A DNA stretch of 33,452 nucleotides. Origin: Fulvivirga sp. (GTDB lineage: Bacteria; Bacteroidota; Bacteroidia; Cytophagales; Cyclobacteriaceae). The notes beneath the pieces are model-generated. The model worked only from the letters and a program-made list of their open reading frames with translations, ran no database searches and was not told where the DNA came from. Below, piece after piece: positions 5,996 to 29,862 of the stretch (position 1 is its first letter; the number at the start of each line of letters is the position of its first letter). Made by a program: the position numbers and the translations under genes. The DNA lies in NCBI GenBank assembly GCA_028280565.1, contig JANQLQ010000087.1:1-33452 (forward strand). The letters are read 5' to 3'.

Positions 5996-8900
5996 TTAAT
6001 TGCCGTTTAGCAGTACTTTACCTTGGAAAGTGGTATCATCTGCTAGCTTCATAATGTAGAAATACAATCCTTTATTTTGCGGCAGGTCCGAAAATTGGAT
6101 CTCGTTACGTCCTATACGCGTCATGCCTTTGTATATCCTAGTTGACTTTCCGCCGGGGCTGAGGAGCTCCATTGAAAATTCTCCGGAAGTCTTCGCTGTA
6201 AATGAAATATTCATAACATCATTCACAGGGTTAGGGTATACGTTGAAATCTTGGCTCGTCAGCAGGTCGTCGATTGAAGTTACCTGGCTTTGCCTGAAGG
6301 CTACCCCGGACACCCTCATCTCGAAGTTATCCAGTTCTTCTTCATCCCCTTTTACATCGAATACCACCATCGTGAGATCATCCCATTCCTGTGACAAGTT
6401 GCTGGAATCGTAGAAAGAAGACCGGTCAAGGTTGAATTGCTCTTCTTCTTCACCCAGTGTGATGGTAGCATGAGGTTGGTCAGCCCAATCCCTGGTCCCG
6501 GATTTTACCAAGGTAACTTCTACGGTGCCTTTTCCACGAGCTTTAAAGGACAATACGCTATAATTTGAAAGGTCCGTAGGCCTGAAGGAAGGATTAAAGG
6601 AACGGAACACCGCCACTGAATTTTTAACTCCTCCCATGATATGCACGTTTCTCTCAAGTCCGTAAACATTTTGATCATCCGAGAAACCCGGGTCTACGAT
6701 AAAACTGCTCACCTCTTCTTGGGCGGGATCATAATCCATACCCCATGCGCCATCGGCGATGAAAATAACATCCGGCATAGCGTTTTTCTCATCGTGGAAC
6801 GTAAGCCCAAGGTCATAAACACTGCCCAAGCTGAGAGATATATTCTCTTTCGTAGCGCCGTCCAGCGTAATGGATTGGTTGAACTCCCGGGTTCCCGAAG
6901 TTTCGGTTTCACTCAATAAACCATCTGCGTTCAATGTTGTGCTAGAAGTCCGGTTAGTAAAGGTCAAATTCAGTTGCCCGGAGGTCATCTCGGCCTTGTT
7001 GACGAAAACACCCGGCGCTTCACTGATATTATAGGCTTCTATCGGTCGCTGTACTTTTAATAAGCGCAGGGTTTCGTTGACCAAATCTACCAACCTGCTT
7101 GTATTGTTCGCCCAGACCTGGAAGTTGTAATAATCAGTGGCAGGTGGATAAAAAGCTAGGTTCCAGTGACTTTCCACGGCAAACTTATCGCTGCCGTCTT
7201 CTTTTATAGAGAAACTAGTGGCGTACTCCGTCGCCCCGTTAGGTAACCGTAGTTTTACCACCTGGAAGTCATGTTCATCGTCAATTTTGTAGGCGAGGAT
7301 GTCCAATAATTCTGATCCGTTCAAGCGATCACAAACGTATTTAGTATGCTCATACACCCCGTCAACAGAAGTCATGGCCAATACCGTGGCTACCCGTGTA
7401 TCTTCCTCAAAAACATCTACTGAAAACACTTCTTCCGCATTGGTAATACCCACCAAATGTTCTGGCGAAGTCACGAATGACTCGGTACCGGGCAGTACTT
7501 CTAAAGGAATGAATTGCTCGATAGAACCTGAACCTATTCGTCCTCTCGGTGAGCTTTTGCCATACTGCTTACTCCTGCCAATTTTTCGTAACTCGGCTTT
7601 GTTATTGTAATTAACCTTTTGCTCCCGGTTTTTGGCAAATTGTACTTTCGCGATTTTCCCGGCAAGACGGTTGTGACTTTCCAATCCGCCGTCATTTCCC
7701 CCGGGTCCACTAGGTGTTTCAGGACACCCGGATACCCCGGAGCAGTCGGGGTCATCACAGTCAGTGAGCCCGTCTGCGTCGTCATCAATCCCGTTGGTAC
7801 AGTCTTCATCCGAAGTAATTAAGAACCGGTAGTCTTCCACTTCACCCATAGCTACAATGTCACCACTGATATTACTTTGGTCTATGGCCACTTCGGATAC
7901 CACTACACGTACATTCACCAATCCCGTAATAAAATTAGCAGGGGGTGTTAAGGTCTGTGCTAGTGGTGTAGCCCCAGAGATGTCCGTGGAGCCGTTGATC
8001 ACTTCATCGAAAGTCCCATCATCGTTCCAATCTACCCCGATACCATAGTAGAGGGTCAAGTTTTCGTTGGAATTCAACCCTATGTTAGCCGTCAACTGCC
8101 CATTGGCAATACGCGTGTTCATGCTCACACCATCATCAGTATCCCCGTCAGCATCTGCGTTGGCAGGGTCCGTGGTGTTATATTCTACCGTGTTTCCAAG
8201 CCAAACTGTAGCGTAATCGGGCAAGCCATCGTTACTCAAGTCCTGCTTGTAGCTAAGCACCCGGCTTTGTGGAAGACGGCTGTTATCGCCATAGTCAAAT
8301 TCGTATACGGCGGGAATATCCAAGGGGCATGAAAAACCATCATTTTTACTCAATTCAGCTACTGAGCTCGATACTCTACGGGCTTCCCCGGTAGTAACGT
8401 CCACACGTAAAATACTACCACTGGAGTTGTGAGAAGCATAGAGGTATCCATCGGATCCTGTCCATTGAGCCCCGTAGCCCCCGGAGGTGGGAATACCAAT
8501 GCCGGTCAAAGCCGCTACAGTAGATTTGGTATTGGTCGATGTATTGAATTTATAAAGCTGGCCTTGGTGAACCGAATAGAAGTGTCCGTCCATATTGTAC
8601 GCAATATCCCAGCCCACTAAACCTTGGCCGGGGTAGGTGGCTACAATCACAGGAGTTCCGCTTACGTTGATTTTGACCATGTCACTGCCTACTACACCAT
8701 ACCATTCGCTGCTTTCATTGATATCGCCGCGGTACACTTTTTTACTAAATGAAATGCCTTGATCCAATACAAATCCATCTTCGTCCAGCCGAATGAATTT
8801 TTTTCCTGACGCTCCGTATACTAATCCAGTATTGATATCGTACCCCAAACCATTGGCAAAATCGGAGGCAATGGCTATAGGGTCGTAGTCCCCGGTGATA

Positions 8901-10273
8901 GGGTCCAGCTTACCATAAACATTGGGCTGATTTTTTCCTCTTTTCTTATATACTTGGTAGAAAGCAGGCTCACATTGAAACGTATTGGGCGTAGGGCAAC
9001 TGCTGATGATCACATCCGAAGAAAGTGTGACCGGGTCTGAGATTGTCCCGGAATTCCCCAAACTTAAGGTAACGCTATTAGTGTTTGTGCCGCTGGCAGC
9101 CGTGTTATCTACGGTAACGTCATAAGAAATGCGCACGGTTTCGCCACCTTCTAATGTAATGCTGCCCCATTGAAGGGTGCCTCGATCACCTTCTACGGGC
9201 TGTAGGTTGAAATCAGAGCTTCCTCCCGCATCAAAATCCAAGGTATCCTGCAAGAAGATGAACCCGGTAGGAAGTACATCAGTGACCGTGATGGTATTCG
9301 TAATACTTGAATTGTTAGTAAAGAAAGCATGGTAAGTAACAATACTTTCCTGGCAAGCGAAATCCGTACTGAACATGACTCCTGATACACCACAAGAAAC
9401 TGTCGACGTACAGTCAGGATCGTTACAATCCACCAGCCCGTCGCCGTCATCATCCAAGCCATTGTCGCATATCTCGGGGAAGACAGGAGGCGCTGCAAGC
9501 GGGCAGCTCATTCCATCATTACTACCATTGGGTTGCGACGTAGCTGTGAAACCAAAAGACAGCACATTGCCGGCATTATCAAACGAAGCCCGGTAAACGT
9601 TACCCGTACCATTATTGAAGAAATAAGTATTTCCTTGTCTATCTGACCAAGCAGCACCGTATGCCCCAGGAGAGGTGGTAGCAGAATAATCGGCGATCAC
9701 CCTGGCGGTGCGGTTGGCCTGATCAAATTCATGTAGCCTGCCGGACCTCATTCCATAAAATTTTCCCGTTACAGGGTTATAAGCAATGTCCGCGCAAACC
9801 TCGGGGGTTGCGACTCCCGATACTACTGTTACAGGAAATTCTTCCGCTGTAGGTGAGGCGTTACTCACATCGATGCGGGTCATTTTCCAAGAACCGCTTT
9901 TTGTATAAAATGAATGCCAATTACCCAACGTGTCCAAGTCAGCGGAATAGCTGATAGCATTGAACCCGCTAATAGTGCCCAGGTCAGTGGCTGCACCGGT
10001 ATTGTCGATCCTTACTAAACTCCCGGAGCTGATACCATAGATGTATCCGTCTTCGTAATTGAATCCTGCCCCGTTGTAAGATACACTGGCACTTCCTAGA
10101 TCCGTGTAGATCCCGGTTGAGGGATCCATCAGCTTTAGATCTCTGCCGTTCACCACTTGGTATAGGTTCGTGCTACAATCGAAATTGGATTGCGCAAAAA
10201 CAGCAGTTTGCATTAGTAAAAATGCTACTGCCCATACTGGCTGTAATGTTCTTTTCATCCTCTGCCCTTTCAT
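5996..10273 (-). CDS. Large T9SS-secreted multidomain protein (DUF6923-like, GEVED, CBM-like)
   Basis: 1425 residues. N-terminal signal peptide ('VWAVAFLLMQTAVFAQ'; ATG at 10273, or the in-frame ATG at 10258). Order seen: a DUF6923-like propeller region (about 35-260), an Asp-rich calcium-binding-type motif ('DNGLDDDGDGLVDCNDPDC', about 268-288), a DUF11-like beta domain (about 295-420), a second DUF6923-like region (about 433-650), a GEVED domain ending in 'GEVEDYRFLI' (about 658-819), a second Asp-rich motif ('NGIDDDADGLTDCDDPDC'), a basic linker, a long unassigned region (about 930-1215), a CBM11/CIA30-like beta sandwich (about 1220-1330) and a T9SS type A sorting domain (from 'FNVYPNPVNDV' to the end). 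Probably a cell-surface or released protein, perhaps adhesive or carbohydrate-binding. No catalytic motif is recognised. Domain names are from pattern memory and are not tested by search. Confidence 0.8.
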   Translation of the reverse strand: MKGQRMKRTLQPVWAVAFLLMQTAVFAQSNFDCSTNLYQVVNGRDLKLMDPSTGIYTDLGSASVSYNGAGFNYEDGYIYGISSGSLVRIDNTGAATDLGTISGFNAISYSADLDTLGNWHSFYTKSGSWKMTRIDVSNASPTAEEFPVTVVSGVATPEVCADIAYNPVTGKFYGMRSGRLHEFDQANRTARVIADYSATTSPGAYGAAWSDRQGNTYFFNNGTGNVYRASFDNAGNVLSFGFTATSQPNGSNDGMSCPLAAPPVFPEICDNGLDDDGDGLVDCNDPDCTSTVSCGVSGVMFSTDFACQESIVTYHAFFTNNSSITNTITVTDVLPTGFIFLQDTLDFDAGGSSDFNLQPVEGDRGTLQWGSITLEGGETVRISYDVTVDNTAASGTNTNSVTLSLGNSGTISDPVTLSSDVIISSCPTPNTFQCEPAFYQVYKKRGKNQPNVYGKLDPITGDYDPIAIASDFANGLGYDINTGLVYGASGKKFIRLDEDGFVLDQGISFSKKVYRGDINESSEWYGVVGSDMVKINVSGTPVIVATYPGQGLVGWDIAYNMDGHFYSVHQGQLYKFNTSTNTKSTVAALTGIGIPTSGGYGAQWTGSDGYLYASHNSSGSILRVDVTTGEARRVSSSVAELSKNDGFSCPLDIPAVYEFDYGDNSRLPQSRVLSYKQDLSNDGLPDYATVWLGNTVEYNTTDPANADADGDTDDGVSMNTRIANGQLTANIGLNSNENLTLYYGIGVDWNDDGTFDEVINGSTDISGATPLAQTLTPPANFITGLVNVRVVVSEVAIDQSNISGDIVAMGEVEDYRFLITSDEDCTNGIDDDADGLTDCDDPDCSGVSGCPETPSGPGGNDGGLESHNRLAGKIAKVQFAKNREQKVNYNNKAELRKIGRSKQYGKSSPRGRIGSGSIEQFIPLEVLPGTESFVTSPEHLVGITNAEEVFSVDVFEEDTRVATVLAMTSVDGVYEHTKYVCDRLNGSELLDILAYKIDDEHDFQVVKLRLPNGATEYATSFSIKEDGSDKFAVESHWNLAFYPPATDYYNFQVWANNTSRLVDLVNETLRLLKVQRPIEAYNISEAPGVFVNKAEMTSGQLNLTFTNRTSSTTLNADGLLSETETSGTREFNQSITLDGATKENISLSLGSVYDLGLTFHDEKNAMPDVIFIADGAWGMDYDPAQEEVSSFIVDPGFSDDQNVYGLERNVHIMGGVKNSVAVFRSFNPSFRPTDLSNYSVLSFKARGKGTVEVTLVKSGTRDWADQPHATITLGEEEEQFNLDRSSFYDSSNLSQEWDDLTMVVFDVKGDEEELDNFEMRVSGVAFRQSQVTSIDDLLTSQDFNVYPNPVNDVMNISFTAKTSGEFSMELLSPGGKSTRIYKGMTRIGRNEIQFSDLPQNKGLYFYIMKLADDTTFQGKVLLNGN

Positions 10274-10629: not shown

Positions 10630-13600
10630 ATGAAAAACTCGCGATACATTACCACCGACGGGAATACCGCGGCATCAAACATAGCGTATGCGTTTAGCGA
10701 AGTCGCGGCTATTTACCCGATCACACCTTCTTCTGACATGGGGGAGAAGGCAGATGCGTGGTCGGCATTGGGAAAAAAGAACCTTTTCGGAGAAAAAGTG
10801 GATGTAATACAAATGCAGTCTGAAGCTGGTGCTGCCGGGGCGATCCACGGTGTACTTTCAGGCGGCGCCTTGGCTACTACCTTTACAGCGTCGCAAGGCC
10901 TGCTATTGATGGTGCCTAATATGTTTAAGATAGCCGGTGAGATGCAGCCCACGGTTTTTCATGTTTCGGCAAGGTCTATCGCGGCCCAGTCCTTGTCTAT
11001 ATTTGGAGATCATTCGGATGTTATGTCTACACGGAGTACAGGTTTTGCACTCCTTTCATCCGGCAATGTACAAGAGGCACAAGACCTTGCTGCCATTGCA
11101 CACTTATCTACATTAAAATCACAGGTCCCGTTCTTACACTTCTTTGACGGTTTCCGCACCTCTCATTCCATGCAAAAAATTGAGGACCTGGAATATGATA
11201 CACTCCATGAGATGCTGGATATGGAGTATATAGAAAAATTTCGCGACCAAGCGCTCAAACCTGAAAACCCTGTCTGCAAAGTAGGGGCTCAAAATCCCGA
11301 CGTCTATTTCCAAGGCCGGGAAACAGTAAATCAATATTACACCGTCTGCCCGTCCATTGTACAAGAGTATATGGACCTTTTTTATGAAAAAACAGGCAGG
11401 AAATACGAACTGTTCCAGTACGTAGGCGACCCCAAAGCAGAAAAACTCATCATCGGTATGGGGTCCGGTATGGAAACCGTGGAAGAGACAGTGAACTATC
11501 TCAATAAAAAAGGGGAGAAAGTGGGACTGCTCAAGGTAAGGTTATACCGTCCATTCTCTATCGAGGCGTTCTTGGATAAAATCCCATCCACGGTCAAAAA
11601 AATAGCGGTATTAGACCGCACCAAAGAGCCCGGCGCCACGGGAGAACCTCTTTACCTCGACGTGCTTTCGGCCTATAAAAACACACCCGACGTACACATT
11701 ATAGGAGGACGTTATGGATTATCCTCTAAAGAATTCACCCCTTCCATGGTGAAAGCAGTATATGATCACTTGGACAATGACGGGTGGCATGGTTTTACGG
11801 TGGGGATCAACGACGATGTTACCAACTTATCAATTCCTATCGGTGAAGAGATCGATACCGAGCAAGAAGGCATCATCCGGTGTAAGTTCTGGGGATATGG
11901 ATCAGACGGTACGGTATCTGCTAATAAAAACTCCATCATGATCATCGGCCAGAGCACGGACCAGTTTGTGCAGGGCTATTTCCAATATGATTCCAATAAA
12001 TCCGGGGGATACACGGTATCGCACCTTCGGTTTGGTAAGGAAAAGATACAATCAGAATACCTTTTAACAAAGGCGGAATTCATCGCCCTACACCGTCCGC
12101 AGTACATAGGCAAGTACGACCTGCTGGAAGGGATCAGCGAAAAAGGTACGTTTTTGATCAACAGCAGTCAAAAACCGGAAAAAATATTCAGCCTCTTTAC
12201 GGAGGGCATGCAAAAGACCATACGTGACAAAAAGATCAAGGTATATGCGATAGACGCTGCGAAAATTGCGAAAAGCGTAGGGCTGGGAGGAAGGATCAAC
12301 AGTGTGATGCAGACGGCCTTTTTCAAACTCTCCGGGGTACTCCCCGAAGAAGAAGCCATAGCGCTGATCAAGCAATACATTGAAAAACAATTCAAGCGCA
12401 AAGGCCAAGAGATCGTAGAAATGAACTGGAAGGCCATAGATGCTTCTGTTGACGCAGTGGTGGAAGTGCCTATCCCGGCAAAAGAAGAAAAACACGCGAA
12501 ATTGCAAGAGGTGGTGCCTGCCGGTTCCGGGGACTTTGCCGAGAAGGTGATGGACCCTGTGCTAAGGCTAAAAGGAGATGTAGTGCCCGTATCTATGATG
12601 TCGCTCAACGGAACTATCCCTACAGCCACGAAAAAGCTAGAGAAACGTGGTCGTCCTGGCAACCCGGCCAAATGGGCGGCCAAGCTAGACTTTGTGCCGG
12701 AGTTTAATTCGGAGGAGCCCTATTTCGAATACCCGGGGTGCTGCTCAGGCTGTGGAGAAACCCCTTACATCCACCTAGCTACCCAACTCTTCGGCGACCG
12801 GATGATCATTGCCAATGCCACGGGATGCACATCCATCTACGGGGGTACGTTCCCATCTAGCCCTTATTCGAAAGATAGCAAGGGATACGGGCCGGCTTGG
12901 GCAAACTCACTTTTTGAAGATAATGCTGAATACGGGTTTGGCATGCGTCTTGCCATCGATGCTAACCGAAAGCAATTAAAAACTAACATCGAGCTGTACC
13001 TACAGCAAACGAAAGCTTCCGGTTTGACCAAAGCCTTTCAAAAATCACTTACCCTGTGGGACCAAGTGACTAATGAAGCTAAGGCCAATGTAGACGAAGT
13101 TAAAAAACTGCTGCCCGCGGCTTTGGATAAGGCGGATGACAATCTTAAACCTGTCCTGGCCAAGATCATAGAGCTGCAAGATTACATTATCGATAAATCG
13201 GTTTGGATCATCGGCGGCGACGGCTGGGCGTATGATATCGGCTTTAGCGGGCTGGATCATGTGATGGCTTCTGATAAAAATGTGAACCTGCTGGTGTTGG
13301 ATACGGAAGTATACTCCAATACCGGGGGGCAGTCGTCCAAAGCCACACCAAGAGCGGCAGTGGCCAAGTTTGCCTCGGATGGTAAAAAACTCGGCAAAAA
13401 GAATTTAGGCCTGATGATGACCACCTATGGAAATGCCTACGTAGCCTCGGTGAATATGGGTATGGACCGTGAGCAGTCTGCCCGGGCCATTGTAGAGGCT
13501 GAAAAGCATAATGGTCCTTCGCTGGTCATTGCGTATTCACCGTGTATCGCTCACGGCTACAACCTACAGCAAGCGAAAAAACAATCGGAAAGAGCTTCCA

Positions 13601-13887
13601 AATCGGGCTATTGGCCTATGTATCGCTTTAATCCTGATCTTCGCCTGCAAGGCAAGGATCCATTCCATTGGGATTCGCCGTCGGTAGATACTGATTTTGG
13701 CAATTTTGTAGAAGATGAGATCCGCTATCGTTCGCTGATGCGTGCCGATCCTGCGGAAGCTGATCGCCTGATCGAATTAGCCCGCGAGGATAACCGCCTG
13801 CGATTTGAAGACCTAAAACATCTTGGCCAGGACCAGCCTGCGGAAAAAAGTAATGAAGAACCTTTAAACGAAGCTATCAATGATTGA
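10630..13887 (+). CDS. nifJ: Pyruvate:ferredoxin/flavodoxin oxidoreductase lacking the ferredoxin domain
   Basis: 1085 residues from the ATG at 10630 (a TTG nine bases earlier is less likely). It oxidises pyruvate with CoA to acetyl-CoA and CO2, reducing a low-potential carrier. Present: the pyruvate-binding N-terminus ('IYPITPSSDMGEKAD', 'VFHVSARSIAAQSL'); the TPP-binding domain ('GGDGWAYDIGFSGLDHV' near 862, 'LDTEVYSNTGGQSSKATP'); and the four proximal [4Fe-4S] ligands Cys705, Cys708 ('CSGCGETPY'), Cys733 ('NATGCTS') and Cys972 ('YSPCIAHGY'). Absent: the usual two-cluster ferredoxin domain. 'KKLEKRG' (about 671) is joined to 'CCSGCGE' (704) by about 33 residues without cysteine, against well over 100 in canonical enzymes, and total length is about 90 below the usual 1170-1190. 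The frame is open throughout, so this is not a frameshift. First gene of the redox cluster; its 3' end overlaps the next gene by 8 bp. Confidence 0.92.
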   Translation: MKNSRYITTDGNTAASNIAYAFSEVAAIYPITPSSDMGEKADAWSALGKKNLFGEKVDVIQMQSEAGAAGAIHGVLSGGALATTFTASQGLLLMVPNMFKIAGEMQPTVFHVSARSIAAQSLSIFGDHSDVMSTRSTGFALLSSGNVQEAQDLAAIAHLSTLKSQVPFLHFFDGFRTSHSMQKIEDLEYDTLHEMLDMEYIEKFRDQALKPENPVCKVGAQNPDVYFQGRETVNQYYTVCPSIVQEYMDLFYEKTGRKYELFQYVGDPKAEKLIIGMGSGMETVEETVNYLNKKGEKVGLLKVRLYRPFSIEAFLDKIPSTVKKIAVLDRTKEPGATGEPLYLDVLSAYKNTPDVHIIGGRYGLSSKEFTPSMVKAVYDHLDNDGWHGFTVGINDDVTNLSIPIGEEIDTEQEGIIRCKFWGYGSDGTVSANKNSIMIIGQSTDQFVQGYFQYDSNKSGGYTVSHLRFGKEKIQSEYLLTKAEFIALHRPQYIGKYDLLEGISEKGTFLINSSQKPEKIFSLFTEGMQKTIRDKKIKVYAIDAAKIAKSVGLGGRINSVMQTAFFKLSGVLPEEEAIALIKQYIEKQFKRKGQEIVEMNWKAIDASVDAVVEVPIPAKEEKHAKLQEVVPAGSGDFAEKVMDPVLRLKGDVVPVSMMSLNGTIPTATKKLEKRGRPGNPAKWAAKLDFVPEFNSEEPYFEYPGCCSGCGETPYIHLATQLFGDRMIIANATGCTSIYGGTFPSSPYSKDSKGYGPAWANSLFEDNAEYGFGMRLAIDANRKQLKTNIELYLQQTKASGLTKAFQKSLTLWDQVTNEAKANVDEVKKLLPAALDKADDNLKPVLAKIIELQDYIIDKSVWIIGGDGWAYDIGFSGLDHVMASDKNVNLLVLDTEVYSNTGGQSSKATPRAAVAKFASDGKKLGKKNLGLMMTTYGNAYVASVNMGMDREQSARAIVEAEKHNGPSLVIAYSPCIAHGYNLQQAKKQSERASKSGYWPMYRFNPDLRLQGKDPFHWDSPSVDTDFGNFVEDEIRYRSLMRADPAEADRLIELAREDNRLRFEDLKHLGQDQPAEKSNEEPLNEAIND

Positions 13888-14925: not shown

Positions 14926-15441
14926 ATGGCTAAAATTGGAATTTTCTACGGGTCTACCGACGGTAACACCGAAAGAGTCTCCGCGCAAATACAGGATGCA
15001 TTTGGCGGTGAGGATATGGTAGCACTTCATAATGTGAACTCGTCTACTTCAGATGATATGGCGGAATATGATTACCTTATTCTTGCCTGCCCTACTTGGG
15101 AGATCGGCGAATTGCAAGAAGATTGGGACTCTTTCATCGATGAGATCGAAGATGTGGATTACAGTGGAAAAATGGTCACGTACCTAGGTTTAGGAGATGC
15201 TGACGGGTACCCGGATACCTTCATTGATGCCCCTGGTATCATTCATGAGCGTATCGCGGATTCCGGCGCAAAATTCGTTGGAGCGTGGCCTACCGAGGGG
15301 TATGACTTTGAAGAGTCTAAGGGTATTGTGGACGGTAAGTTCCTAGGCCTGGTGCTCGACGAAGATAATCAAAAGGATCTAACAGACGATCGGATCGCCA
15401 CATGGGTGGCCCAATTAAAAGGAGAAGGGTTCGGGGCTTAG
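14926..15441 (+). CDS. fldA: Long-chain flavodoxin
   Basis: 171 residues, typical of long-chain flavodoxins. The FMN phosphate loop 'GSTDGNTE' is at residues 9-16. Flavin-flanking loops are 'CPTWEIGELQEDW' (with the aromatic residue stacked on the isoalloxazine) and 'GLGDADGYPDTF', followed by the long-chain insertion ('GAWPTEGYDFEESKG'). The protein is acidic and cytoplasmic. It is a one-electron low-potential carrier that can replace ferredoxin when iron is scarce. Encoded between the NifJ pair and the Rnf genes, it is the natural candidate to shuttle electrons between them. Confidence 0.93.
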   Translation: MAKIGIFYGSTDGNTERVSAQIQDAFGGEDMVALHNVNSSTSDDMAEYDYLILACPTWEIGELQEDWDSFIDEIEDVDYSGKMVTYLGLGDADGYPDTFIDAPGIIHERIADSGAKFVGAWPTEGYDFEESKGIVDGKFLGLVLDEDNQKDLTDDRIATWVAQLKGEGFGA

Positions 15442-15520: not shown

Positions 15521-15931
15521 ATGACTACGGAAAGCATATCACATCATGGCAAAGTCACCCAATGTATGGGGGAGAAGGCCATTGTGCAGCTTACCCAGCA
15601 TGAGGCATGTCATAGTTGTCATATCAAGGAGTTTTGCGGTAAAGGCGACGGTAAAGTCGTAAGTTTCGAGGTGTCTCAAAACGACTTGGCCGTGGGTGAC
15701 CAGGTGTCTTTGCAGATCAGTCCTGCGATTGGCTTCAAAGCCCTCTTTTGGGCATACCTGTTCCCATTCCTGCTCATTTTAATGGTAATCGTTGGCGGAT
15801 CTATGCTGGCTGTCCCTGAACATTGGTTGGGAGTTACAGCATTGTTTGTGCTGTTGCCTTATTTCATAGGGCTGTCACGATTTAAAAGAATCTTGAAATC
15901 ACAATTAAACCTTCAAGTGAAGAAGTTATGA
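15521..15931 (+). CDS. rseC: RseC/MucC-family protein, Rnf-associated
   Basis: 136 residues. The N-terminal half carries Cys15 and the cluster 'CHSCHIKEFC' (Cys30, Cys33, Cys39), which could bind an iron-sulfur centre or metal. The C-terminal half has two membrane helices ('GFKALFWAYLFPFLLILMVI' and 'WLGVTALFVLLPYFIGL'). This layout is that of RseC/MucC proteins, which in other bacteria are linked to the SoxR-reducing (Rsx/Rnf) system. Its stop overlaps the rnfB start by 4 bp (ATGA), which supports a role with the Rnf complex. Exact function is not established. Confidence 0.8.
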   Translation: MTTESISHHGKVTQCMGEKAIVQLTQHEACHSCHIKEFCGKGDGKVVSFEVSQNDLAVGDQVSLQISPAIGFKALFWAYLFPFLLILMVIVGGSMLAVPEHWLGVTALFVLLPYFIGLSRFKRILKSQLNLQVKKL

Positions 15932-16878
15932 ATGCAGCGATCATCGCCACCGTACTGATTTTGGTCACCTTGGGCGCCATCGCCGCCGTGATCTTATATT
16001 TTGTTTCACAGAAGTTCAAAGTAAAGGAAGATCCGCGGCTGGCCGCCGTTACGGAAGCTTTGCCTAGCACTAATTGTGGGGGCTGTGGGCTCCCCGGCTG
16101 TAACGCATTTGCAGAAGCGCTGGTGAAAGCAGATGACCTGGCCCCGTACCACTGCCCGGTAGGCGGTAACGAGGTAATGAAGGAAGTCGCCGAGATCTTG
16201 GGCATGGAAGTAGAAGAACGGGACCCCTATGTGGCTGTGGTCCGTTGCTCTGGCTCATTTGAAGCCCGGAAACAAACCAGTATTTATGATGGAGCCGCCA
16301 ATTGCACCGTAGCTACAGCCTTATACAGCGGGGATCATGGCTGTGCTTATGGCTGTGTGGGTTTAGGGGAATGCGTGGACGCCTGTGACTTCGAGGCCAT
16401 GTACATGGATGAGAAAACAGGCCTGCCGGTAGTCATCGAGGATAAATGCACAGCGTGTAATGCCTGTGTAAAGGCTTGCCCAAAAGATATACTTGAGCTA
16501 TGGCCCGTAGGACGGAAATCCCAGCGGATATACGTGGCATGTAAAAGCGAAGAAAAATCAGGAGTAGCCCGGCAAGAGTGCTCAGTAGCCTGTACCGGTT
16601 GTGCCAAGTGTTTTGACGAATGCAAGTATGATGCGGTCCTAGTGGAAAACAATCTTGCCACGATCGATTTTGAAAAGTGTACGTTGTGCGCCAAGTGTGT
16701 GGTGGTTTGTGAAGCAAACTCTCTAAAAGCTGATAATGTACCCGATAAGACCCTTGAAAAGCTGCTGGAGCGTCATAAGAAGAAATTAGAAAAAGAGAAG
16801 GCCGAAAGAAGGGCGAGCAAACAGAGTGATACAGAAGATAGTCCCGTGACCAAAACCGAGAAAGATGCTGTTCGATAA
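15928..16878 (+). CDS. rnfB: Rnf electron transport complex subunit B
   Basis: 316 residues. An N-terminal membrane anchor (about 5-27) is followed by the 'CGGCGLPGC...CP' [4Fe-4S] domain (Cys50, 53, 58, 76). Four more cysteine quartets follow: Cys139/143/149/153; Cys174/177/180/184; Cys222/225/228/232; and Cys251/254/257/261. That gives about five iron-sulfur clusters, more than the three of the E. coli homologue. The C-terminal tail is highly charged ('LERHKKKLEKEKAERRASK'). RnfB is the entry point that accepts electrons from ferredoxin or flavodoxin at the cytoplasmic face. It overlaps rnfC by 14 bp. Confidence 0.95.
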   Translation: MNAAIIATVLILVTLGAIAAVILYFVSQKFKVKEDPRLAAVTEALPSTNCGGCGLPGCNAFAEALVKADDLAPYHCPVGGNEVMKEVAEILGMEVEERDPYVAVVRCSGSFEARKQTSIYDGAANCTVATALYSGDHGCAYGCVGLGECVDACDFEAMYMDEKTGLPVVIEDKCTACNACVKACPKDILELWPVGRKSQRIYVACKSEEKSGVARQECSVACTGCAKCFDECKYDAVLVENNLATIDFEKCTLCAKCVVVCEANSLKADNVPDKTLEKLLERHKKKLEKEKAERRASKQSDTEDSPVTKTEKDAVR

Positions 16879-18202
16879 CCATTTGAAAACCTTCAGCAAG
16901 GGAGGTGTACACCCTGCTGATCACAAACTCTCGGCAGGTGAGGGCATAGAAGAACTTCCACTGCCACGCAGTGTGACTATCCCCATTTATCAGCACATCG
17001 GTGCCCCTCCTAAAATCGTGGTAGAAAGAGGAGATACGGTCAAAGCTGGTCAAGTTATTGCCATACATGAGGGATTTGTCTCGGCTAACATACACTCTTC
17101 CGTATCTGGTAAAGTAGGGAAGATAGACCCGGTCATGGATAGCAGCGGGTACAAGCATATCGCCATTAATATTCGTGTGAAAGGAGATGACTGGGAAGAG
17201 ACCATCGACCGGACGGATACGCTGGTCACGGATATCCCCTATACCGCCAGCGAGATTGTTGAAAAAGTGATGCAGGCCGGTGTAGTAGGCCAGGGAGGCG
17301 CTGCCTTTCCCAGCCATGTCAAGCTCTCCGTTCCCAAAGGGAAAGTGGTGGATACACTCGTGATCAACGGTGTGGAATGCGAGCCTTACCTGACCGCAGA
17401 CCACCGGGTTATGCTTGAGAAGCCCCACGAGGTAATGATCGGTGCCCAAATCCTGATGAAAGCCTTAGGAGTGAGCAAAGCGATCATTGCCATTGAAAAC
17501 AATAAGCAAGATGCTATCCAGCTACTCTCTACCGTAGCACAGGGCTTTCCAAATATTACAGTGGAAGCGCTAAAAGTACAATATCCCCAAGGAGGGGAAA
17601 GGCAACTGATTGAAGCATTGCTGGGAAGAGAGGTGCCTTCAGGTGGCCTTCCCCATGACGTAGGTGCCATCGTACATAATGTGGGGACCACTTATTCCGT
17701 TTATTTGGCCGTACAAAAAAACCAACCCCTCGTCCAGCGAGTGGTCACGGTGACGGGTAAATCTCTTAAGAAGCCTTCAAATTTCTTAGTGCGGATGGGT
17801 ACTCCTGTGATCGACCTGGTCACAGCTGCCGGGGGTATCCCGGAAGATACCGGTAAGGTGATCAGCGGAGGGCCTATGATGGGCAAAGCCTTAGCAGACC
17901 TCAAAGTACCCATCACCAAAGCTACTTCGGGTATTTTAGTGATCCCCGAGGCCGAAACTAAGCGCGCTGAAACGTACCAATGTTTACGATGTGGAAAATG
18001 CATCGAGGCTTGCCCTATGGGCTTAGAGCCGTACCACCTCATGTTATTGGCGCGTGGTAAGAATACTGATAAAACCAAAGAAGAAAATATTTTGGATTGT
18101 ATGGAATGTGGCTCGTGCTCTTTTGTATGTCCCTCTAACCGTCCAATTCTCGATTATATCCGCTTTAGCAAAGCCAAATTGAAAAAAGCTGTTAAAGAAT
18201 GA
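16865..18202 (+). CDS. rnfC: Rnf electron transport complex subunit C
   Basis: 445 residues, peripheral membrane NADH/FMN-binding subunit. It has the 'GQGGAAFPSHVKL' and 'NGVECEPYLTADHRVMLE' motifs of the flavin/NAD domain. The C-terminus carries two [4Fe-4S] sites: Cys373/376/379/383 ('CLRCGKCIEACP') and Cys412/415/418/422 ('CMECGSCSFVCP'). The start ATG lies inside rnfB, and the stop overlaps rnfD by 4 bp (ATGA). The subunit would exchange electrons with NAD+/NADH. There is no long C-terminal repeat extension of the type seen in enterobacterial RsxC. Confidence 0.95.
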   Translation: MLFDNHLKTFSKGGVHPADHKLSAGEGIEELPLPRSVTIPIYQHIGAPPKIVVERGDTVKAGQVIAIHEGFVSANIHSSVSGKVGKIDPVMDSSGYKHIAINIRVKGDDWEETIDRTDTLVTDIPYTASEIVEKVMQAGVVGQGGAAFPSHVKLSVPKGKVVDTLVINGVECEPYLTADHRVMLEKPHEVMIGAQILMKALGVSKAIIAIENNKQDAIQLLSTVAQGFPNITVEALKVQYPQGGERQLIEALLGREVPSGGLPHDVGAIVHNVGTTYSVYLAVQKNQPLVQRVVTVTGKSLKKPSNFLVRMGTPVIDLVTAAGGIPEDTGKVISGGPMMGKALADLKVPITKATSGILVIPEAETKRAETYQCLRCGKCIEACPMGLEPYHLMLLARGKNTDKTKEENILDCMECGSCSFVCPSNRPILDYIRFSKAKLKKAVKE

Positions 18203-19197
18203 GTAGTTCCTTATTGACGGTATCACCTTCTCCTCATGTTCATCATGAATTAACGGTTCCGCAGGTTATGCGGGGGGTGATCTACGCTATGTTGCCAGCA
18301 TTGGCATTTTCCGTATACACATTTGGGCTCAATGCCTTACTGGTGACCCTAGAGGCGGTGATCAGTTGTGTCTTATTTGAACAGTTGATCAACCGGTACC
18401 TGCTAGGGCGGCAGTCCAGTATTGCAGATGGTTCTGCGATCATCACCGGGATGTTGCTGGCTTTTAATGTACCGACTAACTTACCGTTGCACATTATTGT
18501 ACTGGGCAGTGCCGTGGCGGTAGGCATAGGCAAAATGAGCTTTGGAGGCTTGGGGAACAATCCTTTTAACCCGGCGCTGGTAGGTCGGGTGTTCTTGTTG
18601 ATGTCCTTCCCGGTACAAATGACGAGCTGGCCTACCGCTCAAGGTACACTGATCGCCGATGGTACCACGGGGGCCACTGCGCTAGGCCTTCTCAAAGATG
18701 GACTAAGACAAGGCGAACAGGTTTCCTCCCTGATGCGAGAGATGCCTTCTTACGCAGAACTGTTTTTTGGTTTTCAAGGCGGGTCCTTGGGAGAAATGTC
18801 AGCTTTTGCCCTGCTCTTAGGATTGGTCTATATGCTTTATCGCAAAATCATTACCTGGCACGTGCCTGTATCCATGGTAGCTACCGTATTCCTGCTTACC
18901 GCCGTATTTTGGCTGATCGACCCGGGAAAATATGCTAACCCGGCCTTTCATGTACTTACCGGTGGGGTGCTGATCGGCGCTATTTTTATGGCCACTGACT
19001 ATGTAACGTCACCTTTCACACATAAAGGCATGATCATTTTCGGTGTGGGGATAGGACTGATCACCGTAGTGATCCGCTTGTTCGGCAGCTACCCGGAAGG
19101 TGTTTCTTTCGCCATCTTGATCATGAACGCTTTTGTACCCTTGATCAATCGATATACCAAACCCACGAGGTACGGGGCTAAAACTGTTTCTTCATGA
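18199..19197 (+). CDS. rnfD: Rnf electron transport complex subunit D
   Basis: 332-residue integral membrane subunit with about nine or ten hydrophobic segments. The flavinylation motif is 'TTGATALG', with Thr160 as predicted covalent FMN attachment residue. The family signatures 'GLGNNPFNPALVGR' and 'FMATDYVTSPFTHKG' are present. It is homologous to NqrB and takes part in coupling electron transfer to Na+ or H+ movement. It overlaps rnfC and rnfG by 4 bp each. Confidence 0.95.
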   Translation: MSSSLLTVSPSPHVHHELTVPQVMRGVIYAMLPALAFSVYTFGLNALLVTLEAVISCVLFEQLINRYLLGRQSSIADGSAIITGMLLAFNVPTNLPLHIIVLGSAVAVGIGKMSFGGLGNNPFNPALVGRVFLLMSFPVQMTSWPTAQGTLIADGTTGATALGLLKDGLRQGEQVSSLMREMPSYAELFFGFQGGSLGEMSAFALLLGLVYMLYRKIITWHVPVSMVATVFLLTAVFWLIDPGKYANPAFHVLTGGVLIGAIFMATDYVTSPFTHKGMIIFGVGIGLITVVIRLFGSYPEGVSFAILIMNAFVPLINRYTKPTRYGAKTVSS

Positions 19198-19868
19198 GCA
19201 CACGTAAATCTTCTTTTTTCAATATGGTATCTACCCTGGTATTAGTCACGGGAGGTGCCGCTTTAGCACTGGGTTTTGTATACCAATGGACAAAAGAACC
19301 TATTGCACAAGCCAAGATAGAAAAGCAGATGAGGGCGATCCGGTCTGTTACAGGTGAGTACACCAATGATCCTTTAAGTGAAGCTTACCAGGTAGCGCGA
19401 GATAAGGGAGAAGGACAGCGATTCAGGCATAAAGAACCGACAAACGAAGAACAGGCCAAAGGGGAGAAAAAAAGCGAGGAAGTACTGACTTTTTACCCAG
19501 CTAAACTGACCAATGACCAGCAAATTACGGCCATCAGCGCTTATTCTGACAACGGGTACAGCGGTAGGATCGAACTTATGGTAGGCATCGACGAAAATGG
19601 AGCCGTTCGTAATATCGAGGTAGTGAGCCACCTCGAGACCCCGGGCTTAGGCTCTAAGATCAAAGATCAAGACTTTATTGAGCAATTTATCGGCAAAACC
19701 GCCGATGATTTTGATATGCGCGTTACAAATGACGGTGGGGAGGTAGATGGGATCTCCGGGGCCACCATTTCGTCCCGGGCATTTTGTGAAGCCGTACAAC
19801 AGGCACTGGATGCCTTTAACGAAACCAAAGATGAAAAAAGAAATAACCTATCGGGAAACCTTAACTAA
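19194..19868 (+). CDS. rnfG: Rnf electron transport complex subunit G
   Basis: 224 residues. One N-terminal membrane helix (about 10-31) is followed by a periplasmic FMN-binding domain. The conserved '[11 protein letters not shown]' and the flavinylation motif '[10 protein letters not shown]' are present, with Thr191 as predicted covalent FMN site. A charged insertion (about 75-97) precedes the FMN domain. An ApbE-type flavin transferase would be required, and none is encoded in this window. Its 3' end overlaps rnfE by 38 bp. Confidence 0.93.
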
Positions 19869-20427
19869 GGGGTTTTTAAAAGAAAACCCTGTTTTTGTGT
19901 TGTTGTTAGGGCTTTGCCCGGTTTTAGGGGTCACCACCTCTGCCATCAATGGCCTGGGTATGGGGTTGGCCACCTTGTTTGTATTATTTATGTCAAACGT
20001 GGTGATTTCGCTGATCCGTAATTTTATTCCCGCCCAGGTGCGTATCCCTTCATTTATCGTGATCATAGCCTCCTTCGTAACCGTGGTAGACCTGGTCATG
20101 GCCGGTTATACTCCCGCCTTACATGAGCAGCTGGGCATCTTCATCCCTTTGATCGTGGTGAATTGTATTGTTTTGGGTAGGGCAGAGGCTTTTGCCTCCA
20201 AACACTCGTTGTTATTTTCCATGATCGATGGAGTAGGCATGGGCGTTGGCTTCACATTCGCCTTGGTACTGCTGGGGGGAATCCGCGAGATATTAGGCAA
20301 TCTTTCCCTTTTTGGACTTAAAATATTGGACACGGACGGGATGATCCTGTTCATCCTAGCTCCCGGGGCGTTCATTGTGCTCGGATTAATTATTGGTTTT
20401 TTGAACTGGAGAAAGAAAGAGGTTTGA
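19831..20427 (+). CDS. rnfE: Rnf electron transport complex subunit E
   Basis: 198-residue membrane subunit with six likely helices. I chose the ATG at 19831 ('[20 protein letters not shown]'), the usual family start; the frame is open further upstream, but only as rnfG in another frame. Cys29 ('[11 protein letters not shown]') and Cys112 ('[12 protein letters not shown]') are the conserved residues that, with the RnfA pair, hold the intramembrane iron centre. It is a paralogue of RnfA with inverted topology. It overlaps rnfG by 38 bp. Confidence 0.94.
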
Positions 20428-20519: not shown

Positions 20520-21092
20520 ATGGACTACATTGTGATCATTATTTCGGCTATATTCATTAACAATATCGTTTTGTCCCGCTTCTTAGGGATCTGCCCTTTC
20601 CTGGGGGTATCGAAGAACATATCTACTGCCGTGGGGATGGGCGGCGCGGTGCTATTTGTAATGACGATCGCCACTATTGTCACCTTCCTGATCTATAAGT
20701 TTTTGCTTTTGCCTTTTGAGATCACCTACTTACAAACGGTCGCTTATATACTCGTGATCGCTTTCTTGGTACAGGTGGTAGAGATTGTTATTAAAAAAGT
20801 AAGCCCCGACCTTTACCAAGCTCTTGGCGTCTTTCTTCCCTTGATCACCACAAATTGCGCTATCCTTGGGGTGGCGATCCTCGTGATCCAGCAAGATCTT
20901 ACCTTGCTCAAAGGAGTGGTTTTTGCCGTAGCCAATGCTTTTGGTTTTACCTTGGCTATAGTCCTTTTTTCCAGCCTCCGCGAGTTCTTGGAAATGGCAG
21001 AGCTACCCCCGGCGATGAAAGGCGTACCCGCCGCTTTGATCATCGCCGGTATTCTCAGCATGGCTTTTATGGGGTTCGCAGGTTTGGTCTAA
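20520..21092 (+). CDS. rnfA: Rnf electron transport complex subunit A
   Basis: 190-residue membrane subunit with six likely helices. Cys25 ('FLGICPFLGVS') and Cys113 ('ITTNCAILGVA') are the conserved iron-centre ligands shared with RnfE. The sequence is close to family consensus over its whole length. It is the last gene of the redox cluster; no clear terminator follows within 150 bp. Confidence 0.95.
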   Translation: MDYIVIIISAIFINNIVLSRFLGICPFLGVSKNISTAVGMGGAVLFVMTIATIVTFLIYKFLLLPFEITYLQTVAYILVIAFLVQVVEIVIKKVSPDLYQALGVFLPLITTNCAILGVAILVIQQDLTLLKGVVFAVANAFGFTLAIVLFSSLREFLEMAELPPAMKGVPAALIIAGILSMAFMGFAGLV

Positions 21093-25159: not shown

Positions 25160-27082
25160 TTACTTTTTAACCATTTTGAAAGTTTCTATTACGTTTCCAT
25201 AAGTCAACCGGTAAAAATAGAGTCCTTGGGGTAAATTGTTACCTTGCCAAGGGAATATATGATTTCCCGCTTCTAACCATTGGTCTTCCAACAAGGTATG
25301 AACCTTGCTGCCATGAATATCAATGACCTCTAAGGACACCGGCAGGGCGGTGTCGAGATCAAAGCTGATATTGACCTCTTGTAGGAAGGGATTTGGAAAG
25401 GCCCTGGAGTTGACCAGGTCAGCCTGCTGGTGTACTGTGGCCGATCTCCTGCCACCGCTGGTACTGTTAGTCTTACCAATACGCAGCCAGTTAATATTCC
25501 AGCCGCCGGATTGAGCAAAGATCCCCAAATTGTATGTGCCGGCATTCACGAAAACAGTATGTTGAACAGTCGTCCAGTTTTGCCAACCCCCGGTATTTGG
25601 AATACTTACTTCTCCTAATACCATGGTGCCTGCCTCAAGATCGGCAGATAAACGGGCACCGTTGATGGCGCTGGCTACCCTATACTCAATTGTGTAGCTG
25701 CCTGTTTCGGGAAAGGTGACATTGCTAAACACCATCCAGTCTCCCGTCTCGATGTATCCTACGTTCAGTCCTCCCTCGGAGCAAGGTTCGGTTTGCATTC
25801 CCCCGGACTGCAGGGTGAAGTTTTCCGCTTCAATGGTTTGAGAGGCAGGGGGAGGAGGGCTGGAGCCGGCAAAGCCTCCCAACGTTATTTTTATGTTGAC
25901 CGGGCCAGGCGTGTGAATGGTGGCAGATTGATCAAATACATCGTCATAAGCAAATGCATACGTAAGCCCATCCACACTGATGCTGGGTTGATGCAGGAAC
26001 TTTGCATACCAGTTATAAGGCCATTGCTGGTAATAGTTAGCCGTGTTTCCAAAATCTTGCAATACACCCGAAGGAACGTCCAGGTCGATAGCATGGCGGG
26101 TGATAGCGGCTACAAACTGGGCTTGTACTACCTTATCCCATTGCCCCCCAGAGGCCAGTACACCGCTTCCTTCCATGGCTTCCAATGTGTTGGGCTTTCC
26201 CGGGATAACGGCCCTTTGACGGTCTCCGTCACGGGTGAAAATGAATTGATCCCCCTGCACACTGCCGCGCCACACACCGGCCTGCCCGGAATTGAATACC
26301 AATTGTTGAGCCCGGTACTTTGACCATATCGCGTCTATATATGACTGGAAGAAATTAGAAGGAAAAGTAGGCGTTTTCGTAGGAAAACGGATCATACCCT
26401 GGGAACTGTCCAGCAGCCCTTGGAACTCTGCTGGTGCCGTAGCTTGCCATTCGGAAAGAATTTCATTATGCGTTTTAAGCTCTCCTACCTTTTTATAAAA
26501 GTTATTCCCCCAAACCTCCAAACCCATCGGGTACTGGTAGGCATCTACCCGTGATGTGTTACACCAAAGGCCGAGATCGTTATAAGTTAACTCTACCATT
26601 TCAAATTTGACCCCTTGGTTAGGGTCGGTAGGGTTATCCAGGTTGGGTGCAGCATACCCACTGGGACTCCCGGAATGACCAAAAAAGTAGAGGTACAACG
26701 GGCTTTCAAAAGAGATGAGTATACGGCATCCTGCTATTTTAGGAATATTGACCCTTCGGTTGGGGATGTCGCTCAACTTCCTAAAACAATTGGCATATAA
26801 TCCATTGTTCCCAGGGCCAAGATCTCCCCCGATCACTGGTCCCGGTACAGTATTGTCCGACACGCTCATAGGGTTGACCTGCCCGGTGGTCGGGTCTACC
26901 CAAACGTGGCCGCCTGTAATGCCTACAATGGCTACATAAACATTTTCATCGGTATATTCAGAGTTATTGACTATTTCGTACGGCAGGGTTTGCGCACGGA
27001 TATGGCCAAAGGAGGGTAAGAACATGAGCAGGCTAAATGCAAGTATTCGTACCGTTTGGGATCGTGTTATAATCATTCTCAT
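25160..27082 (-). CDS. GH64 beta-1,3-glucanase with CBM6 and T9SS sorting domain
   Basis: About 640 residues from the ATG at 27082 (an in-frame ATG at 27076 and an upstream TTG at 27112 also exist). A signal peptide ends near 'HIRAQ' (about 30). The GH64 domain (about 33-410) begins 'LPYEIVNNSEYTDENVYVAI'. The catalytic pair of the family fits a Glu in 'EMVELTYND' and an Asp 16 residues later in 'NTSRVDAY', the same spacing as Glu154/Asp170 of the known laminaripentaose-producing enzyme. A Pro-rich linker leads to a CBM6 ('IEAENFTLQSGG' to 'NINWLRI', about 415-545) and a T9SS type A sorting domain ('AFPNPFLQEV' to the end). Secreted laminarin hydrolase. It lies 55 bp downstream of the GH16 gene, probably in one operon. 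Confidence 0.87.
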   Translation of the reverse strand: MRMIITRSQTVRILAFSLLMFLPSFGHIRAQTLPYEIVNNSEYTDENVYVAIVGITGGHVWVDPTTGQVNPMSVSDNTVPGPVIGGDLGPGNNGLYANCFRKLSDIPNRRVNIPKIAGCRILISFESPLYLYFFGHSGSPSGYAAPNLDNPTDPNQGVKFEMVELTYNDLGLWCNTSRVDAYQYPMGLEVWGNNFYKKVGELKTHNEILSEWQATAPAEFQGLLDSSQGMIRFPTKTPTFPSNFFQSYIDAIWSKYRAQQLVFNSGQAGVWRGSVQGDQFIFTRDGDRQRAVIPGKPNTLEAMEGSGVLASGGQWDKVVQAQFVAAITRHAIDLDVPSGVLQDFGNTANYYQQWPYNWYAKFLHQPSISVDGLTYAFAYDDVFDQSATIHTPGPVNIKITLGGFAGSSPPPPASQTIEAENFTLQSGGMQTEPCSEGGLNVGYIETGDWMVFSNVTFPETGSYTIEYRVASAINGARLSADLEAGTMVLGEVSIPNTGGWQNWTTVQHTVFVNAGTYNLGIFAQSGGWNINWLRIGKTNSTSGGRRSATVHQQADLVNSRAFPNPFLQEVNISFDLDTALPVSLEVIDIHGSKVHTLLEDQWLEAGNHIFPWQGNNLPQGLYFYRLTYGNVIETFKMVKK

Positions 27083-27137
27083 ATGGATTTTGGTCGGTTG
27101 AAAGTTGATCAATTGGGTCAGTTAGATAGAACGTAGT

Positions 27138-28595
27138 TTACTCTTTAATAAAACGATGCATGATAGTTTCACTATCAGCTTGGAACTGTATGAAGTACAT
27201 GCCCTCTTCCAATGATGAGATGTCCACTGATCCTTCATTGATCCCCGTTCTTAACACTTCTCGACCCTGCATGTCCAAGATATGGGCGGTATAGACCGTG
27301 CCTTCTTTTATAAAAACGTTCAGCTTATCCTTGGCAGGATTCGGGAATATAGTATAGGTGCTGCTATTTAAGGGCTCTGAATCATAAGTGTCTAGGTTTT
27401 TGGCAGATGATATGCGGGCGGAAGAGGAATTCAGCTTTGTGATTTTCCACCAGTTGATATTCCACCCCCCGGATTGAGCGTAAATCCCGAAATTATAGGT
27501 GCCTGCATTAACGTATACCGTATGTGAAACCGTGGTCCAGTTTTGCCAGCCGCCGGTGTTGGGAATGCCCACCTCTCCCAATTGAATAGCACCTGCTTGT
27601 AGATCGGCTGATAAGCGAGCCCCATTGACAGCACTCGCTACCCTATATTCGATCAAATAATTACCTGTAGAAGGGAAGTTAATGTTGCTGTAGGCCATCC
27701 AGTCGGCGGTTTCGATGTATCCCACATTGAGCCCGCCCTCGACACAAGGTTCTAATTGCACCCCTGACTGCGCAAAAAAGGATTCGGCTTCTACCTGTCG
27801 TGTGAAAGGTGCAGTTCCACCCCCGCCATTTCGCTGGTAAACCCGCACGTAATCCACGTACATTTTAGCGGGAAAAGCATTATTATCCACGGCAAAGCCC
27901 GGCCAGTTACCACCGATGGCCATATTCAACAAGATGAAAAAGTTCTCATGGAACTCATGGGTTCCGTTGATCCCGTTCTCGATATTGGCCTCGTTGTATT
28001 TCCTGCCATTTACAAACCATTGTATGCTTTTGTCATCCCACTCTACGGAATAAATGTGAAACTGGGTAACATCGGTGCCGGTAGACCGGCCGAACATAGC
28101 GCGTTGCCCAGTGTGGTCTCTCCAATGGATGGTGCCATGAATATCCGGGTCTGTATTGATATGTTCCATGATATCTATTTCCCCACAGGAGGGCCATCCT
28201 ACCGTGGAGATGCTTTCCCCAAGCATCCAAAACGCCGGCCATGATCCCTGGAACGATGGCAAAGCGATACGGGCTTCTATTTTTCCATAACGCCACGATT
28301 TTCTTCCCTGTGTTTTCATCCTTGCAGAGGTGTAACTTCTCCCACCAAAATTTTCCCGGCGAGCGGTAATCACTAGGTTGCCGTTTTCTACCGAAGCATT
28401 CTCCCGCCGGTAGTATTGTAGTTCATTGTTTCCCCAGCCATTGGCGCCTGTGCCGGTTTCAAAGACCCAGTCCGGGCCTATGCCGTGGGTAAATTCATCT
28501 TGCCATACCAGCTGCCAGCTGCTGTTTTGGGCGATCAGTGGTGAGCAGTAAAAGGTTATGATAAATAGGAAGTATGTAGATATGAGGCGGTCCAT
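27138..28595 (-). CDS. GH16 beta-1,3(4)-glucanase (laminarinase) with CBM6 and T9SS domain
   Basis: 485 residues. The signal peptide ends near 'LIAQ' (about 23). The GH16 domain (about 27-255) has the catalytic motif 'GEIDIMEH' (Glu139, Asp141, Glu144), the ExDxxE form typical of laminarinases and related GH16_3 enzymes, plus 'GWGNNELQYY' and the closing 'MYVDYVRVYQ'. The CBM6 (about 263-385) is nearly the same as that of the GH64 neighbour. The T9SS type A sorting domain starts at 'YTIFPNPAKDKL'. It is an extracellular endo-glucanase likely to act on laminarin or similar beta-1,3-glucans, upstream of and probably co-transcribed with the GH64 gene. Confidence 0.9.
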   Translation of the reverse strand: MDRLISTYFLFIITFYCSPLIAQNSSWQLVWQDEFTHGIGPDWVFETGTGANGWGNNELQYYRRENASVENGNLVITARRENFGGRSYTSARMKTQGRKSWRYGKIEARIALPSFQGSWPAFWMLGESISTVGWPSCGEIDIMEHINTDPDIHGTIHWRDHTGQRAMFGRSTGTDVTQFHIYSVEWDDKSIQWFVNGRKYNEANIENGINGTHEFHENFFILLNMAIGGNWPGFAVDNNAFPAKMYVDYVRVYQRNGGGGTAPFTRQVEAESFFAQSGVQLEPCVEGGLNVGYIETADWMAYSNINFPSTGNYLIEYRVASAVNGARLSADLQAGAIQLGEVGIPNTGGWQNWTTVSHTVYVNAGTYNFGIYAQSGGWNINWWKITKLNSSSARISSAKNLDTYDSEPLNSSTYTIFPNPAKDKLNVFIKEGTVYTAHILDMQGREVLRTGINEGSVDISSLEEGMYFIQFQADSETIMHRFIKE

Positions 28596-29632: not shown

Positions 29633-29706
29633 ATTCGATTAACAGGGAACTAAGCCGAAATGTTAAAAAAAGCACTGTAATCTCATTCCTACTGACCTGG
29701 ACTCGA

Positions 29707-29862
29707 TTAAAAAATGACCGTCATTCCGCGCCGGTGGCTGTGGGAGGGCCCATGGCGAAAGCCGGGACCTGCTGTGTCGTAGAACGGAAGTTAATCCCCA
29801 ATTTAAAGCCTGTGAAAGCATGCTAAACCTCACGTTAAGCCTAGGCTACAATGATTTTAAGT
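29707..29862 (+). repeat. Interspersed repeat, family C, copy 2
   Basis: About 156 bp, in opposite orientation to the copy at 21294-21455. It begins near CGTCATTCCGCGCCGGTGG and ends AAGCCTAGGCTACAATGAT. The two copies differ by scattered substitutions and a few short indels, so they are not a recent duplication. Confidence 0.65.

Follow-up and report, generated by a model that had tools for sequence, protein, structure and literature searches.

The stretch of DNA analyzed here, which we call the window, comprises 33,452 nucleotides from a Fulvivirga sp. (family Cyclobacteriaceae, phylum Bacteroidota; GenBank assembly GCA_028280565.1, contig JANQLQ010000087.1) and encodes a single-chain pyruvate:ferredoxin oxidoreductase (PFOR, NifJ), a key enzyme in the anaerobic breakdown of sugars, that lacks domain V, the internal two-cluster ferredoxin domain of its structurally solved relatives. 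A search of the genome gave this one PFOR. Its frame opens with ATG 10630 and closes with the stop codon 13885-13887, an in-frame TTG at 10621 being a second and less likely candidate start (Table 1). The protein scores 1494 bits against TIGR02176, the NCBIfam model for pyruvate:ferredoxin (flavodoxin) oxidoreductase with a cut-off of 911, and contains the Pfam domains POR_N, PFOR_II, POR, EKR and TPP_enzyme_C, with no Fer4 domain in the protein at E <= 0.001. All of this is carried in one frame of 1085 residues, and not in the separate alpha and beta chains of a two-subunit oxoacid oxidoreductase.

The catalytic core is intact. A preliminary description, made from the letters of the window, had held that the thiamine pyrophosphate (TPP) domain, the pyruvate motifs and four proximal-cluster cysteines are intact, and the Pfam domains, the pocket residues and an alignment of 43 sequences all bear this out. 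Cys 733 and Cys 972, which we take to be proximal cluster ligands alongside the CxGC pair, are invariant in that alignment. In Desulfovibrio africanus the TPP/pyruvate pocket is described as comprising Thr31, Arg114, Leu121, Ala219, Ile843, Asn996 and Met1202 (PMC5020499). By hand count on the alignment with chain 7plm, the first six of these correspond to T32, R115, L122, A220, I736 and N897 of the window PFOR; Met1202 lies outside the aligned part. All but A220 are invariant in the 43 sequences. Pyruvate is the expected substrate, since the pocket residues of the D. africanus enzyme are kept.

The absence of domain V is equally clear. Comparison with solved structures by phmmer aligned the window PFOR to the Moorella thermoacetica enzyme (6cin) in two blocks, residues 8-684 with 5-683 and 695-1066 with 799-1169, leaving about 115 residues of 6cin, the ferredoxin domain, without a match. 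The same gap is present against 7plm and 1b0p, both from D. africanus, and its two flanks align fully to the solved PFORs. The claim that the enzyme has lost this domain is thus confirmed by alignment with the D. africanus protein: 6cin, 7plm and 1b0p all carry the extra stretch with its two CxxCxxCxxxC clusters, and the window PFOR has only the proximal-cluster cysteines. There is no cysteine between its KKLEKRG and CCSGCGE motifs, no further ferredoxin cluster was found elsewhere in the chain, and no CxxCxxCxxxC motif occurs in any of the six frames of the window outside RnfB and RnfC. Judged from the sequence, the chain would hold a single [4Fe-4S] cluster.

The same distinction holds across an alignment of 160 proteins, 36 of them short and 124 with domain V. 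The region equivalent to residues 676 to 703 measures 26-30 residues in the short forms, with no cysteine except for one in each of three proteins, compared with 122-141 residues and 8-10 cysteines in the proteins with domain V. Cysteine occupies positions C705, C708, C733 and C972 in 36, 36, 36 and 35 (one gap) of the 36 short forms, and 13 positions, among them R489, Q491, K668 and P702, separate the two forms. As a separate observation, two PFOR-like proteins of the same family (L194:3962-7423 (+) and L197:3824-7258 (+), in genomes G505 and G500) present a mirror-image variant, in which the eight domain V cysteines are kept and cysteine is missing at the positions of C705, C733 and C972. 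They are the only two such proteins among the 124 with domain V, gaps being uncounted, and sit on long branches in the tree described below.

The short form recurs within the family. Among 57 relatives, a congener carries it at 89% identity over the full length, and another genus of the family at 72%. Across Cyclobacteriaceae, 35 of 295 genomes have a PFOR match at E <= 1e-60, and 20 of these carry the short form and 15 a PFOR with domain V, so the deletion is not a sequencing or assembly fault of one strain. Nor is it the common form of the enzyme. When 395 genomes were sampled evenly across the phylum, 213 had a match at E <= 1e-100, and one-piece full-length matches (1812-2482 bits), among the matches listed, came only from the window genome and three other Cyclobacteriaceae. 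For the remaining genomes the best piece among the matches listed, ordered by E-value, reached at most 828 bits, in a scan that may overlook short forms broken at contig ends; all 26 loci inspected from this sample keep domain V. No genome was seen with both forms, whether among the two best candidates per genome tabulated for the family or among all candidates tabulated for the spirochaetes, and the short form therefore appears to replace the normal PFOR. Its recurrence in many genomes argues that it did not arise by chance. Larger frames of about 1590-1680 residues, 29-31% identical to the window PFOR, were also noted in eight relatives, two of them of the window's genus (L013:1408-4074 (+), with similar loci L007-L012 and L014); the scanned part of one contains POR_N, PFOR_II and POR.

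Outside Bacteroidota, a contig scan gave a third named short form in a Spirochaetaceae metagenome-assembled genome (MAG; L062), 66% identical to the window PFOR. In the order to which it belongs, 34 of 46 genomes have a match, of which 19 span the junction unbroken, 13 are split by domain V and two (G718 and G733) are fragments that could belong to either form. A sample of 198 genomes of the spirochaete phylum contained 103 with a match, and among the matches listed one full-length piece was present only in two, both from that order. Two further phyla, those of G702 and G705, were scanned with a 121-residue junction probe at E <= 1e-17, giving hits in 74 of 392 and 80 of 395 genomes, respectively; none of the listed matches spans the junction, with a probe that may miss short forms that have diverged strongly, or a PFOR below threshold. 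These scans bring the total to 1888 overlapping genome searches, with the remaining phyla covered only by the 80 best contigs of one scan. A Mycoplasmatota MAG (L130) whose match length had looked short was rejected as a candidate, having at least 10 cysteines in the region and domain V kept.

A tree of the 160 proteins, built with the linker columns removed, unites the 36 short forms in a single clade with a Shimodaira-Hasegawa-like approximate likelihood ratio test (SH-aLRT) support of 100, and the short/domain-V label changes once across it. The tree comes from a quick search without bootstrap, is midpoint-rooted for drawing, and includes comparison proteins mostly chosen by similarity to the window protein. 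The clade is nested among domain-V PFORs of spirochaetes, Aminicenantes, Lentisphaerota and others and falls outside the Bacteroidota PFORs, its nearest rows being one genome of the spirochaete phylum and two MAGs labelled Nanoarchaeota. This arrangement fits a single loss plus a transfer between phyla, which may have run either way between spirochaetes and Cyclobacteriaceae, the spirochaete short forms being grouped together with a support of 63. The likeness to simple archaeal two-subunit enzymes drawn in the preliminary description is consequently an analogy only, since the short enzymes are nested within the single-chain, domain-V-bearing PFORs. Comparison of the window gene with four relatives gave nonsynonymous divergence (dN) of 0.07-0.19 in pairs whose synonymous divergence (dS) was too large for an estimate, which indicates purifying selection on the short PFOR.

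Downstream of the PFOR gene, and all on one strand, follow a gene for a dihydroorotate-dehydrogenase-like (DHOD-like) protein, a flavodoxin gene, an RseC-like gene and the genes for RnfB, C, D, G, E and A, extending to 21092. The profile match of RnfE begins at about residue 36 of its open reading frame, which makes a true start near 19852 probable. Elsewhere in the window, a 1425-residue protein with DUF6923 repeats, a GEVED domain and a weak Por secretion tail is encoded at 5996-10273, on the strand opposite to the PFOR operon, and a beta-1,3-glucan cluster occupies 25160-32867 on the minus strand, comprising GH64 and two GH16 proteins with CBM6 domains and Por secretion tails.

Table 1. Features of the PFOR locus, in window positions.
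Feature	Position	Strand	Basis
Single-chain PFOR (NifJ) without domain V, 1085 residues	10630..13887	+	Open reading frame, TIGR02176, Pfam, PDB alignment
Linker standing at the place of domain V, residues 675-704	12652..12741	+	Alignment
CxGC motif, Cys 705 and Cys 708, proximal [4Fe-4S] cluster ligands	12742..12753	+	Invariant in 43-sequence alignment; role from PMC5020499
Cys 733, presumed proximal cluster ligand	12826..12828	+	Invariant in 43-sequence alignment
Cys 972, presumed proximal cluster ligand	13543..13545	+	Invariant in 43-sequence alignment
DHOD-like protein, PRK07565	13880..14908	+	Start overlaps PFOR stop by 8 bases
Long-chain flavodoxin, TIGR01752, proposed electron acceptor	14926..15441	+	Profile match, linkage counts
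RseC/MucC-family protein, head of the Rnf genes	15521..15931	+	Pfam
RnfB, polyferredoxin subunit	15928..16878	+	Pfam/NCBIfam, motif scan
RnfC	16865..18202	+	Pfam/NCBIfam
RnfD	18199..19197	+	Pfam/NCBIfam
RnfG	19194..19868	+	Pfam/NCBIfam
RnfE, mechanical open reading frame	19747..20427	+	Pfam/NCBIfam
RnfA	20520..21092	+	Pfam/NCBIfam

Within the window's family, the deletion goes together with the adjacent flavodoxin and, mostly, with the Rnf genes. At least 2 kb of sequence follows the short PFOR in 20 Cyclobacteriaceae loci (19 from family genomes, the other from a named Cytophagales MAG, L061), and in all 20 flavodoxin and DHOD-like genes lie within 2.5 kb; of the 19 loci with at least 7 kb, 15 have RnfC with RnfD within 10 kb. 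At the family loci with domain V, flavodoxin and Rnf were each present in 0 of 12 and the DHOD-like gene in 8 of 12; it is therefore the flavodoxin linkage, and not the DHOD-like gene, that tracks the loss of domain V in this family. Other domain-V loci from the contig scan gave flavodoxin in 0 of 52 and RnfC with RnfD in 0 of 40, a lone RnfD-like match standing beside two of them. A similar association is present on a 3.29 Mb contig of the spirochaete G714, where Rnf genes, a flavodoxin (50% identity), the short PFOR and a DHOD-like gene (49%) stand together in another order.

These observations enable us to propose a route for the electrons, which we consider somewhat more probable than the alternatives taken together. 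Domain V would have been lost once, in the ancestor of the clade now found in Cyclobacteriaceae and one spirochaete order. Pyruvate would be decarboxylated on TPP, with the electrons leaving singly through the sole proximal [4Fe-4S] cluster, and an external carrier would dock at the place vacated by domain V and take them up directly. In the window organism this carrier would most likely be the flavin mononucleotide (FMN) flavodoxin whose gene is the second one downstream of PFOR; Rnf, encoded by the next genes, would re-oxidize it with NAD+ (nicotinamide adenine dinucleotide) while pumping ions. The transfer step from proximal cluster to flavodoxin is one that we infer, and the window PFOR is a putative flavodoxin reductase on the strength of gene linkage.

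There are precedents for such a route. StOFORs have a single cluster, lack domain V and rely on an external ferredoxin; the sole cluster of StOFOR is close to the surface of a large pocket, and a dicluster ferredoxin has been modeled into that pocket (PMC5020499). The Eubacterium limosum POR is described as reducing flavodoxin in PMC13390469, whose reference list includes work titled as sodium-dependent flavodoxin re-oxidation by Rnf. Bacteroidetes at low iron raise flavodoxin and lower PFOR and ferredoxin (PMC10434189), on which basis one could speculate that an enzyme with 4 Fe in place of 12 spares iron. A wider reading, to which we give slightly less than an even chance, is that these single-chain, one-cluster enzymes constitute a stable subfamily of pyruvate:flavodoxin oxidoreductases with 4 rather than 12 Fe per chain, in which flavodoxin occupies the domain V site and receives electrons directly from the proximal cluster, and that the subfamily moved between Spirochaetota and Bacteroidota and was joined in the latter by the flavodoxin and Rnf genes.

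Several observations weigh against flavodoxin as the carrier. Among spirochaete short-form loci, flavodoxin is near in only 1 of 10 that are testable and Rnf in 1 of 7, and 4 of 19 short-form spirochaete genomes have no flavodoxin match at E <= 1e-10; flavodoxin use therefore cannot define the whole short clade, and flavodoxin as the cause of the loss throughout it finds no support there. At the genome level flavodoxin goes with PFOR of either form: it is present in 20/20 family genomes with the short form, 9/15 with domain V and 4/20 without PFOR (these 20 being part of the 260 without a match), and in the spirochaete order in 15/19, 12/15 with another PFOR (including the two fragments) and 2/12, respectively. 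The 20 linked family loci share ancestry in one clade and so represent far fewer than 20 independent events. The genome of the window also encodes a dicluster ferredoxin of 115 residues (L289:944-1291 (+), contig C146). Lastly, an AlphaFold monomer built on the 43-row alignment has a mean predicted local distance difference test score (pLDDT) of 78 and domain folds resembling those of solved relatives, but residues 660-687 and 702-707 fall below 50 and the whole-chain root-mean-square deviation to 6cio is 27.6. With so poor a superposition and such low confidence over much of the linker, the model permits no inference on cluster access or docking. The earlier suggestion of direct handover to the flavodoxin encoded nearby is thus supported as to the adjoining gene in Cyclobacteriaceae and not as to the handover itself, given the spirochaete loci, the presence of flavodoxin with either form and the dicluster ferredoxin.

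The strongest alternative, though an unlikely one, is that the carrier is a small two-cluster ferredoxin seated in the vacated pocket, as modeled for Sulfolobus, with flavodoxin as a backup or serving Rnf or other enzymes. The dicluster ferredoxin of the window genome is an obvious candidate, and the 9 of 10 testable spirochaete loci without an adjoining flavodoxin are consistent with such a partner. Set against it are the flavodoxin linkage in 20/20 Cyclobacteriaceae loci and a motif scan of 18 short-form loci (the window and 17 related loci), blind to distantly encoded ferredoxins, in which no neighboring small gene carried CxxCxxCxxxC; outside RnfB and RnfC the motif occurred only in a chance-like 51-residue frame in L217. 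The occurrence of flavodoxin with either form, the scarce spirochaete linkage and the encoded dicluster ferredoxin keep a ferredoxin partner under consideration.

It is improbable that the DHOD-like protein serves as a partner subunit, with a flavin that passes electrons on from the proximal cluster to either flavodoxin or NAD+. Its gene directly follows PFOR in 20/20 testable Cyclobacteriaceae loci, with an 8-base translational overlap in the window, and stands beside PFOR in G714. The gene does not, however, track the loss of domain V, being present at 8/12 family domain-V loci and absent, together with flavodoxin, from 9/10 testable spirochaete short-form loci, and the flavin is assumed from the family. 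Direct delivery of electrons to the RnfB polyferredoxin at the membrane is less probable by some way: the Rnf genes follow in 15/19 loci, but the other four have flavodoxin and no Rnf within the available stretch (the rest of those genomes being unsearched for Rnf). An artefact of assembly or sequencing, or a decaying pseudogene, is ruled out by the same kind of junction in 20 family and 19 spirochaete genomes, by the long open frames and by the dN and dS figures.

If the proposed flavodoxin route is correct, PFOR, flavodoxin and Rnf would form a low-iron, three-component path from pyruvate to an ion gradient. A natural single-chain PFOR without the domain V clusters, kept in two phyla, suggests that these clusters are dispensable, and the short enzyme offers a direct system in which to address their purpose, how one cluster suffices to empty the radical intermediate, and what determines the choice between ferredoxin and flavodoxin.

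The window PFOR resembles the D. africanus (1b0p, 7plm) and M. thermoacetica (6cin) enzymes in chain order, TPP core, proximal cysteines and pocket residues, and differs from them in having a short, cysteine-free linker in place of their domain V and its two [4Fe-4S] clusters. In nitrogen fixers, the pyruvate:flavodoxin oxidoreductase NifJ reduces flavodoxin and keeps domain V, so that flavodoxin would dock at the distal cluster there. We found no description of a single-chain PFOR without domain V in the literature searched, in which subscription journals were mostly outside coverage. StOFOR1/2 of Sulfolobus tokodaii and the Halobacterium salinarum enzymes, which the window enzyme may resemble in cluster number, to judge from its cysteine count, are described as having one [4Fe-4S] cluster per protomer, no intramolecular ferredoxin domain and an external carrier, and one-cluster, two-subunit oxoacid oxidoreductases are reported from Halobacterium, Aeropyrum and Hydrogenobacter, the StOFORs additionally lacking domains IV and VII (PMC5020499). 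Such two-subunit enzymes are (alpha beta)2 assemblies, whereas the window enzyme consists of one chain and is most closely related to single-chain PFORs that have domain V. One-cluster oxoacid oxidoreductases are already known as two-subunit enzymes, and we regard the single-chain version without domain V as a variant of the PFOR represented by TIGR02176.

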